A stretch of 64,000 nt of DNA from NCBI RefSeq assembly GCF_000442255.1, contig NZ_KE557273.1, forward strand, positions 257,335 to 321,334. The letters are read 5' to 3'. The notes under the pieces were generated by a model that worked only from the letters and a program-made list of their open reading frames with translations, had not been told where the DNA came from and did not search any database. Positions 1-2,856 of this stretch are shown piece after piece. The stretch comes from Salipiger mucosus DSM 16094 (GTDB lineage Bacteria > Pseudomonadota > Alphaproteobacteria > Rhodobacterales > Rhodobacteraceae). Positions within the stretch are counted from its first letter, which is position 1. Each line of letters begins with the position of its first letter. The position numbers and the translations under genes were made by a program.

Positions 1-462
<462 letters not shown>

Positions 463-659: not shown

Positions 660-887
660 TCAGCGCAGGATCGCGCGGATGCGGTCGCGCTTCTCGGTGT
701 CGTCGCTGCCCGAAACGATCACGGCCAGCAGCTGCGTGCGCTCATGCGCGGTGAGGCTGTCCAGGTCGACCTGCGGTGCGAACTGGTGCACACGGCTCAG
801 GGTGTCGTTGGAGGGGGCTGCGACGGCTGCGCCGGCGCCTGCGGTGAGGGCGAGAACAGTTGCGGTGGTGGTGATGATGCGTTTCAT
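660..887 (-). CDS. Small exported protein with a single 48-residue repeat unit
   Basis: I do not recognise a named family. The 75-residue protein starts with KR and a hydrophobic run ending AAVAA, a good Sec signal peptide, so the mature product would be only about 50 residues in the periplasm. That mature part is one unit of a pattern: P38, then S59-G60 21 residues later, then R67 eight residues later, with a conserved LT near residue 45. The same unit with identical spacing occurs three times in the protein at 1772-2329. The start is supported by GGAGTGA upstream of ATG. It faces tuf tail to tail. Function unknown; a small periplasmic regulator or structural protein is possible but nothing proves it. 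Confidence 0.75.
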
Positions 888-965
888 GGTTCACTCCGTT
901 CTTTCGGTTCTGAGACTGGCGCCCGAGGGCGCCGCCGCGCGGTCCATCGCCGCGTCGACAACTGG

Positions 966-994
966 AATATTGTTTTCCAGCAGTGATTTAGCAA
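966..994 (-). promoter_or_regulatory. Possible promoter of the small exported protein
   Basis: On the minus strand TTGCTA (994-989) and AATATT (971-966) are 17 bp apart, about 80 bases before the ATG at 887. The match is moderate. Confidence 0.35.
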
Positions 995-1325
995 ATCACC
1001 AACCCGCTCACAGCCGCTCGCAAAATTGTGCCCTTGAATGTGTACGACAGCATACGGGTCCGTCGTTCGCGCCCGGATGCGCCGAAAAATCGGGGTTTTT
1101 CGCGCCCTCCGAAAAGAGGCGTCGTGATCGCGGGTATCGTCGAGGCCCGCAGGGGGCGGGTGGCACCGGCTCTGCGCGTGTGTGCACAGGCCTTTCCGAG
1201 CCGTTTTCGAGTGTTTTCCAGGGGAGGTCCGGGGTCTCCCGGCCGGGTCTGGCGGGGTCCTGGCGGCGCGATGCGCGGGGTGTCCCGCGGCCCGGGTTGA
1301 TTGCACGACAAGGCCACTTTCCCGC
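995..1325. other. Non-coding stretch before tRNA-Trp
   Basis: No convincing gene is seen. The one clear structure is an inverted repeat at 1083-1102, CGAAAAA and TTTTTCG around TCGGGG, similar in style to the AT-rich CGAA/TTCG palindromes at other junctions in this window. The open frames on both strands lack plausible ribosome binding sites and protein-like composition. Confidence 0.5.
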
Positions 1326-1354
1326 TTGCATCGGGGCGGTCTGTTTCGTAAAGG
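1326..1354 (+). promoter_or_regulatory. Putative tRNA-Trp promoter
   Basis: TTGCAT (1326-1331), 17 bp, TAAAGG (1349-1354). Transcription would begin a few bases before the mature tRNA end at 1368. Confidence 0.45.
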
Positions 1355-1367
1355 GTGCACCGGCCTT

Positions 1368-1443
1368 AGGGGTATAGCTCAGTTGGTAGAGCGACGGTCT
1401 CCAAAACCGTAGGTCGCGGGTTCGAGCCCTGCTGCCCCTGCCA
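1368..1443 (+). tRNA. trnW: tRNA-Trp (anticodon CCA)
   Basis: The 76-nt cloverleaf is read directly: acceptor stem AGGGGTA pairs with TGCCCCT, discriminator G, and CCA is encoded at 1441-1443. The anticodon stem is ACGGT/ACCGT with loop CTCCAAA, giving anticodon CCA at 1401-1403. The T-arm contains GGTTCGAGCC. It reads UGG. It sits between tuf and secE as in many alphaproteobacteria, here flanked by two repeat-protein genes. Confidence 0.97.
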
Positions 1444-1479
1444 CTCTCCTCACATCACCGAAGCACGGGTCACGGCGAC

Positions 1480-1705
1480 CTGTACGGCTCGTACGGGAGT
1501 TTCGTACGGCTGCGCGCCCCGGCGAGGTCGCCAGCTGCGCCGTGCGTCCTGCATGGCAGCCGCCGCGAGGGCGTCATGTACGGCTCGTACGGGGTTTCTG
1601 TACGGGAGCGCGCGCGGTCCGGCCGGCCACCGCGCCGGCCTCGGGTCGCCGCAGCCGCGAGGCTGGCGTCCTGTACGGCTCGTACGGGGTTTCCGTACGC
1701 TGTCA
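1480..1705. repeat. Three ~95-bp direct repeats with GTACG hairpins behind tRNA-Trp
   Basis: The core TGTACGGCTCGTACGGG followed by GTTTC and GTACG occurs at about 1481, 1577 and 1672, spaced 96 and 95 bp. Similar GC-rich blocks containing CCGCGAGG and GCGTC precede copies 2 and 3, so the unit is longer than the core. Each core can form GTACG/CGTAC or CGTACGG/CCGTACG hairpins. No coding function is seen. It could be 3'-end processing or termination structure for the tRNA transcript, or a locally amplified palindromic element. Confidence 0.7.
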
Positions 1706-1715
1706 TGCGCGCACG

Positions 1716-1746
1716 CAAAAAGGGGCCGCGCCGAAGCGCAGCCCCT
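1716..1746 (-). terminator. Terminator of the three-repeat exported protein gene
   Basis: Read on the minus strand, AGGGGCTGCGC, a TTCG loop and GCGCGGCCCCT are followed by a T-run at 1720-1716. It lies 25 bases after the stop at 1772. Confidence 0.8.
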
Positions 1747-1771
1747 GTTTGGCTCGGAATGAGCGCCGGTC

Positions 1772-2329
1772 TTACGACAGGGCCTGCTCGAGGTCCCGAC
1801 GGATGTCGACATCGCTGCTGCCGCTGTAGATCGCCGCGCGGACTTCGTTCACGTCCTCGGCGGTGAGGTCGGTCAGCTGCGCGTCGGGCACGAAGAACAT
1901 CACGCGCTGCATTTCGGCTTCGGTCAGGGCGGCCGCGTCGCCGGTCACGATGGCCATGACTTCCTCGCGGATGTCGGCCGGCTCGCTGCCCGATTCGATG
2001 ATGGCCTGCGCTTCGACCTTCTGTGCGTCGGTCATCGCGGCGACCTGCCAGTCCGGCACGTACTCCATGATCATTGCGTCAACCTCGGGCGAGACCGAGT
2101 CGATCATGTTGCTGCCTTCGACGATCTGCTGGATCTTGTCGCGCTTCTCGACGTCCGAGTCGCCGCTCTTGGCGATGGCGAAGGCTTCGTCGACCTGGGC
2201 ATCGGTCATCATGGAGACGTCGACGCCGGGCGCGACGGTGTTGATGGCGGTCACCTCGGCCTCGGAAGCGGCATATGCGCCGGTGGCGAGGACGGTCGTA
2301 AGGGCGGTAACGGTCAGGATGCGTTTCAT
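1772..2329 (-). CDS. Exported protein with three 48-residue repeat units
   Basis: This is a 185-residue protein with an N-terminal KR, a hydrophobic core and an AYA-A cleavage site near residue 21, so it is probably periplasmic. The mature part has three units in register: P34/S55-G56/R63, P92/S113-G114/R121 and P148/S169-G170/R177. In every unit Pro to SG is 21 residues and SG to Arg is 8, and a conserved T follows a Met or Leu before the second helix. The gene at 660-887 has one such unit. The ATG at 2329 is chosen because GAAAGGA lies just upstream and the signal peptide begins there; a longer frame upstream lacks both. No named family is recognised; the acidic helical repeats suggest binding or scaffolding, which is inference. 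Confidence 0.85.
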   Translation of the reverse strand: MKRILTVTALTTVLATGAYAASEAEVTAINTVAPGVDVSMMTDAQVDEAFAIAKSGDSDVEKRDKIQQIVEGSNMIDSVSPEVDAMIMEYVPDWQVAAMTDAQKVEAQAIIESGSEPADIREEVMAIVTGDAAALTEAEMQRVMFFVPDAQLTDLTAEDVNEVRAAIYSGSSDVDIRRDLEQALS

Positions 2330-2664: not shown

Positions 2665-2856
2665 ATGGCCAATCCACTCCAGTTCGTTCAGCAGACCCGG
2701 GCCGAGGTCGCCAAGATCTCGTGGCCGACGCGGCGCGAGGTGATCCTGACCACGGTCATGGTCTTCATCATGGCGACCCTGACGGCGATCTTCTTTGCCC
2801 TGGCCGATCTCCTGATCCGGACCGGGCTGCAGGGGCTGCTCAACTTCTTCGGGTGA
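2665..2856 (+). CDS. secE: Preprotein translocase subunit SecE
   Basis: SecE clamps SecY in the inner-membrane translocation channel. The 63-residue protein is the short single-span form common outside enterobacteria: an amphipathic N-terminal segment containing VAKISWPTRRE (residues 16-26), the family signature, followed by one transmembrane helix of about residues 27-50. The ATG at 2665 gives the family N-terminus; longer upstream frames add unrelated residues. It precedes nusG, as in most bacteria, with a terminator-like hairpin between. Its partner SecY is encoded at 38274-39638. Confidence 0.95.
   Translation: MANPLQFVQQTRAEVAKISWPTRREVILTTVMVFIMATLTAIFFALADLLIRTGLQGLLNFFG

Follow-up and report, generated by a model that had tools for sequence, protein, structure and literature searches.

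The window analyzed here comprises 64,000 nucleotides of Salipiger mucosus DSM 16094 (contig NZ_KE557273.1). Near its start, two small minus-strand genes lie between tuf and secE, and Table 1 collects their coordinates and those of the surrounding features. Both open reading frames that a preliminary description had reported to flank tRNA-Trp are present. Inspection of their translations reveals an MKRI start followed by a hydrophobic stretch ending in small residues in each, and on this reading by eye both products would be exported via Sec-type signal peptides, as had been proposed. Neither protein contains cysteine. The computed pI of the long protein after its first 22 residues is 4.05, a value we take to be the calculator's lower limit. 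A third gene of the same family in this genome, located on a separate contig (C9), encodes 72 amino acids with one unit.

Table 1 Features at the locus, in window coordinates
Feature	Position	Strand	Remarks
tuf (EF-Tu), 3' part	13..462	+	Neighbor of the short gene
Short gene, putative exported protein	660..887	-	75 aa with a single unit; between tuf and tRNA-Trp; unit HMM E 3.8e-17, with this protein's own unit among the HMM inputs
Unit of the short protein, residues 24-75	663..818	-	AF2 pLDDT 87.3, three predicted helices
Conserved leader of the short gene	967..1038	-	Sequence comparison of leaders
tRNA-Trp (cca)	1368..1443	+	Between the short and long genes
Terminator-like hairpin with T run	1716..1746	-	3' of the long gene; sequence and fold
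Long gene, putative exported protein	1772..2329	-	185 aa, three units, acidic
Long protein, unit 3	1775..1927	-
Long protein, unit 2	1940..2095	-
Long protein, unit 1	2114..2269	-
secE	2665..2856	+	Divergent neighbor of the long gene

The interval between tRNA-Trp and the long gene (1460-1699) holds a 49-nt repeat in three copies at spacings of 96 and 95 bp. Each copy contains GTACGGCTCGTACGG and could fold a CGTACGG hairpin, and the exact 15-mer of these repeats occurs in the genome at these three places only. On the minus strand at 1716-1801, over the terminator-like hairpin, Rfam returned a weak SorY match (25.9 bits against a gathering threshold of 111) that is probably due to chance. With regard to tRNA-Trp as an integration site, the tRNA 3' end is not repeated among the repeats of at least 14 nt in 440-2680.

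The relationship between the units was assessed by alignment and shuffling. The recurring residues singled out in the preliminary description (P38/S59/R67 in the short protein; P34/S55/R63, P92/S113/R121 and P148/S169/R177 in the long one) are all correct, with a G after each S. The four units share a gapless 44-residue core, with pairwise z of 5.7-7.4 and 8-15 of 44 residues identical, and none of 10,000 residue shuffles per pair reaches the observed score for any of the six pairs. A free scan of the mature short protein against the mature long protein gives a score of 75 (null maximum 49, 300 shuffles), and the long protein compared with itself scores best when shifted by 58 residues, at 72 (null maximum 41, 300 shuffles). 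Successive unit prolines in the long protein lie at distances of 58 and 56 residues; the unit thus spans ~50 residues plus short linkers with a conserved core of 44-48. Alignment and shuffle tests thus support the earlier proposal of one repeat family with one unit in the short protein and three in the long. The long protein's units are themselves mutually divergent (13-15 of 44 identical). Among single units, conservation is highest at L21, D17, P14, S/T22 and, between helices B and C, the polar stretch SGDSExEKR; we infer that most of these cap helices or belong to the core, and that K42 and R43 may lie on the surface.

Every unit is predicted to form a compact three-helix domain. The single-unit model, generated from 60 aligned units, has a pLDDT of 87.3 and a pTM of 0.66 with helices at 4-13, 24-34 and 40-51, and the AlphaFold model of three units has a mean pLDDT of 75.9 and a pTM of 0.38. 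Foldseek returned no PDB match at E<=0.001, the best being E 3.5 for the three-unit model and E 3.1 for the single unit. The VIA fold search gave a best Z of 5.2 over 54 residues, to a designed protein, and another search gave Z 3.8. The best PDB match by sequence is also to a designed protein (E 0.0085, 14 residues). Nothing in the fold searches rises above noise, and they are evidence neither of a shared fold nor of a new one.

The preliminary description had recognized no named family in these proteins, and the family-model searches returned none. Pfam and NCBIfam matches (E 0.001-1.5) are scattered over unrelated families, lie under curated cut-offs wherever these are shown and fall in some cases on the signal peptide; the lowest are to AMP phosphorylase (E 0.0016, 1 of 21 members) and DUF7436 (E 0.0022, one relative). 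PADLOC gave no match. Two PHROGs head maturation protease families matched 2 and 1 of 41 units, respectively, at a best E of 0.0026, and were taken as chance. A search of the literature, with a coverage that leaves out most subscription journals, found nothing on this family.

The two window genes are members of a lineage-specific family of small exported proteins of the Rhodobacteraceae/Roseobacteraceae. To describe its spread we used a unit-only profile (A3, 41 units), from which signal peptides were left out because some earlier matches (e.g. residues 1-23) covered the signal peptide only. In a sample holding almost one genome per genus of the taxonomic family, 71 of 394 genomes match this profile at E<=1e-4, and ~18% of the sampled genera (70/393) carry unit genes. 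In the order sample, 25 of 149 genomes match at E<=1e-3, all within the same taxonomic family; since every listed genome in that sample belongs to it, this count says little about other families. The class sample gave two matches among 385 genomes, namely the genome studied here and one other with a weak 25-residue match, in a set that contains few genomes of the taxonomic family, at least four of them without a match. At E<=1e-3 the P0002 search found relatives in 22 genomes out of 61. These comprise every one of the 20 genus members, our own among them, plus 2 of 17 other genomes of the taxonomic family and 0 of 24 from other families; the genus is taken broadly here, as Salipiger together with Alloyangia and Citreicella. 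Scanning of genome contigs gave no match with P0002 and 18 loci with A1, and a tblastn search of plasmids with one relative (L005) as the query gave no match.

Unit number ranges from 1 to 4, with two four-unit proteins seen (L029/L044 and L083), and median lengths are 75, 152 and 192 amino acids for one, two and three units. Cysteine is present in only 2 of 109 family genes. Median computed pI is 4.05-4.17 for multi-unit proteins and 4.86 for single-unit proteins (range 4.05-10.23), with 4.27 for one four-unit protein and 6.05 for the window single-unit copy. One member (L045) comes from a record titled Enemella evansiae (JAFKDC010000014.1); its secE region and unit genes point to Rhodobacteraceae, and the assembly is probably mislabelled.

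Chromosomal position was surveyed on one or two pieces of DNA around the matches in 68 of the 71 genomes, where tuf, secE and tRNA-Trp were mapped. The tuf - tRNA-Trp - secE interval is the most frequent location: in 39 of the 68 genomes, our own included, a unit gene lies within 5 kb of one of these three. Counted by gene, the figure is 81 of 122, with one far gene counted twice on two overlapping pieces, and it is 58 of 76 for genes with a unit E<1e-8. With our own genome left out, 64 unit genes were counted no more than 8 kb from secE, and 62 of them are encoded on the other strand. On the pieces that carry tRNA-Trp, again without our own genome, the tuf side of the tRNA holds 60 single-unit versus 3 two-unit calls, two of the latter where the sequence has unknown letters; 12 multi-unit genes versus 1 single-unit gene lie towards secE. 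In the other 29 of 68 genomes, the fetched members lie elsewhere, some at contig ends and some as diverged branches, and one multi-unit branch adjoins GAF/PEP-utilising-enzyme and aspartokinase-like genes.

tRNA-Trp does not anchor these genes. At all 13 named Salipiger/Alloyangia/Citreicella loci (L032-L044) the gene is divergent from secE. In contrast, tRNA-Trp lies within 0.4 kb in 7 of the 13, 3.5 kb away in one, and is absent from the DNA examined in five, of which one (L035) has DNA that stops 0.8 kb past the gene. That is to say, the constant element is the locus and not the tRNA. In two genomes of the genus (L026, L027), two-unit members adjoin tRNA-Leu (taa). No partner gene was seen at the home locus, where only tuf, secE, nusG, rplK and tRNAs were mapped, and the neighbors at other loci (flavin reductase, GNAT, GAF/PEP-utilising enzyme, aspartokinase-like, sulfate permease and others) suggest none.

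The preliminary description had also read the locus as growing by unit duplication around the tRNA. The part of this idea that stands is that unit number and copy number vary at the locus across genera. In Citreicella sp. C3M06 (L029), units 1 and 2 of the four both have unit 1 of L019 as their nearest relative and each other as the next nearest, a unit duplication in that line. Recent local growth in the window does not stand. For each of window units 1, 2 and 3, the five nearest neighbors by FastTree distances on these short sequences are same-position units in other genomes of the genus, which places the origin of the three-unit gene before the genus. The closest unit to that of the short gene is the C9 copy.

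In several genera, single-unit genes form tandem arrays of near-identical copies, with a period of 253-272 bp, 2.9-3.9 copies and a 93-98% match in four of six arrays scanned (L079, L081, L082, L146). L139 and L078 gave no array call at the same setting despite three and four adjacent single-unit genes, and several arrays sit at contig ends. One genome (L139/L140) has two copies, 96.7% identical, of a 1.4-kb block that holds three single-unit genes; one copy is by tRNA-Trp/secE and the other adjoins a monomeric isocitrate dehydrogenase gene. For multi-unit genes, Nei-Gojobori dN/dS is 0.09-0.25 in eight of nine ortholog pairs; the exception, the window gene versus L004, has 0.66 at 46% identity. 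For tandem copies, where many values rest on few changes, 25 of 30 pairs have dN/dS of 0-0.23 and the other five 0.30, 0.39, 0.40, 0.42 and 0.73. The single-unit genes of L078 compared with its secE-side gene give 0.8-1.0, as might be expected of old paralogs. Most of these comparisons indicate purifying selection, and low dN/dS with copies mostly kept alike fits dosage better than diversification.

Comparison of upstream regions reveals a conserved leader in part of the family. In the window, the short gene leader has TTCAAGGGCAC at 1028-1038, GGTGATTTG at 992-1000 as a degenerate form of CGTGATTTC, and a degenerate CCCnAnnT position at 967-974. With at most one mismatch, TTCAAGGGCAC occurs in 7 of 133 upstream regions at -127 to -159, all of single-unit genes (shuffle mean 0.58, maximum 3). 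An alignment of 32 leaders, 30 of them chosen for having the motif plus those of the window and C9, contains TCAAGnnCAC, GCGTGA, CGTGATTTC and CCC(C/T)A at nearly fixed spacing. Across the 133 regions, GTGATTTC followed by a CCCCATCT-like block is found in 24, with a spacing of 17 in 23 of these, and the corresponding GTGATTTC-N17-CCC.A-like controls give a shuffle mean of 0.15 with a maximum of 1, and 0 on the other strand. Roughly one in two leading single-unit genes has the GTGATTTC-N17-CCCnA leader upstream. Our own genome lacks the exact element; the window copy is degenerate at CCCnA and one looser match lies elsewhere.

Genome-wide, the element is rare. In 12 genomes picked for the leader, GTGATTTC-N17-CCCnAnnT has 11 sites, 10 at family genes and the other inside an ORF; in the 394 genomes of the taxonomic family it has 36 sites against 5 for the reversed pattern. 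Thirteen of 32 sites examined precede a small exported protein of family type by 53-87 bases, and 12 of these proteins score with the unit profile. The thirteenth (L215) reaches E 0.11 with the same layout, DVNVDAL..SQ....L...DDS..R..ARRIL, in a genome without an earlier profile match; the DNA element thus pointed to one diverged member that the profile had missed. Of the other 19 sites, 15 are inside open frames of at least 250 codons, but so are 3 of the 13 family sites, and in GC-rich DNA such a position is therefore no sharp criterion. As both strings, GTGATTTC and CCCnA, were picked from these very sequences, independent support comes only from the constant spacing, the element's rarity across genomes and the single new member.

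Several known controls were compared with this leader. According to PMC9275681, the CenKR envelope regulon of Rhodobacter sphaeroides has OmpR-type TGA-N8-TGA direct repeats upstream of exported-protein genes, and the family leader likewise has GTGA half-sites. CenR control finds no support: a matrix from 31 listed R. sphaeroides sites is not enriched, with 29 of 60 leaders over threshold against a Markov mean of 22.9 (maximum 29) and 40 on the opposite strand. Exact TGA-N8-TGA occurs in 7 of 60 leaders and 2 on the other strand (control mean 3.1, maximum 7), and spacing 9 gives 10. The RpoHI/RpoHII promoter rule, as given in PMC3441632, has TTG at -36 to -34 at a set distance to A-12; an RpoH-type promoter would not fit at TTG, as GTGATTTC-N17-CCC(C/T)A puts TTC there if its A is -12. 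Shared control with secE is not supported either: CGTGATTTC-like sites are found in 4 of 46 secE upstream regions (shuffle mean 1.3, maximum 3; other strand 5). Folding of each leader gave no consistent 5' UTR hairpin.

Our preferred explanation is a lineage-specific exported family acting as soluble, non-catalytic envelope binding modules. To the whole of it we would give an even chance, while its family, locus and leader parts are held with high confidence; the functional part, an envelope binding module tuned by dose and valency, is a tentative proposal. Binding is suggested by export and by three-helix modules in which no catalytic or metal-binding signature is evident, bulk supply by the amplification of single units downstream of a specific leader, and avidity by the repeats. 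Following Sec export and signal-peptide removal, the mature proteins may act as soluble binding modules, without catalysis, in the cell envelope or around it. Bulk supply on demand would come from the single-unit form through gene amplification under the specific promoter/leader, and the acidic multi-unit form would offer several binding sites per molecule, with avidity arising from the repeats. First guesses on the role are helping exported proteins or buffering envelope stress. It is conceivable, though we would not favor it over its negation, that in a new exported domain family of Rhodobacterales a dedicated regulator has essentially one target per genome, the tuf-side array, and that the multivalent form divergent from secE ties the envelope module to the translation/export cluster in a dose-and-valency system.

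If the units were instead periplasmic chaperones of the LTXXQ (Spy/CpxP) family, clients would be held on a helical surface. The units do often carry an L[TS]xx[QE] motif (L-T-x-x-Q/E ahead of helix B), and helices B-C can be aligned with a Spy chain, but this alignment (Z 2.8, 36 residues, 25% identity) is at noise level by the tool's own note and S/T-x-x-E/Q is a common helix N-cap. Membership in PF07813 is not supported: an own-genome search at E<=10 gives three places, all away from the window genes and the C9 copy, and Pfam scans of family members list none. We consider this chaperone reading improbable. Similarly improbable is a role in cation or salt adaptation, with acidic multi-unit forms buffering Ca2+ or maintaining the periplasm in salt water. 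The low pI of the multi-unit proteins, weak PDB profile matches to oncomodulin (E 0.19-0.23) and a host described as moderately halophilic would agree with it; the less acidic single-unit forms, the lack of an EF-hand model among the Pfam scan matches and conserved polar positions that resemble helix caps and K/R rather than acidic loops argue against it. A separate LTXXQ (Spy/CpxP-type) match over cut-off lies elsewhere in the genome (G000:C1:69791-70072).

Two further readings turn on the copies themselves. Small exported products with near-identical tandem copies and multi-unit relatives could be tandem-amplified secreted peptide effectors or signals, bacteriocin- or pheromone-like, with the multi-unit gene as a polyprotein precursor. 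We judge this unlikely, as substitutions between tandem copies are mostly synonymous, the long protein's units differ strongly and an inter-unit processing site is not evident by eye in the alignment. A neutral hotspot, in which small ORFs are copied around tuf without a selected function, would account for the wide copy-number differences and the arrays at contig ends. Low dN/dS in most ortholog and tandem-copy pairs, presence of the family in all 20 genus genomes searched and the conserved leader make it very improbable.

The family has practical appeal. Roughly 18% of the sampled genera in a large, mostly marine taxonomic family carry genes that no family model searched names. The leader is rare elsewhere in these genomes, which makes control of the unit genes testable, and a small three-helix unit should be easy to express, to solve and to use as bait. 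For specialists, the interest lies in which envelope partner or stress selects such dosage.

The three-helix family, its two-sided arrangement and its own leader are not met in the databases and literature searched, and its individual traits invite comparison with known systems. Orphan proteins that are small and exported, with domain repeats and tandem copies, are known. DUF4148 (PF13663) comprises small exported single-domain proteins, as in the unit family; this candidate was rejected, with one single-unit relative at E 0.0058 (17.5 bits versus a cut-off of 27) over residues 1-44, largely signal peptide, and no listing for P0001 or P0002. GA module and protein A-type domains are ~50-residue three-helix repeats that bind protein partners, a format like that of the family unit. 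Identity with the GA module (PF01468) was also rejected: 1 of 21 members matched it, at E 0.11, and at E<=0.1 it was listed for no unit out of 41. Alignment to protein A repeat entries gave Z 2.2-2.6. With Spy/CpxP proteins (PF07813) the family shares small, exported helical products and an L-T-x-x-Q-like motif. In contrast to the long-helix cradle of the Spy/CpxP fold, the family is built from a ~50-residue unit of three short predicted helices that is repeated one to four times.
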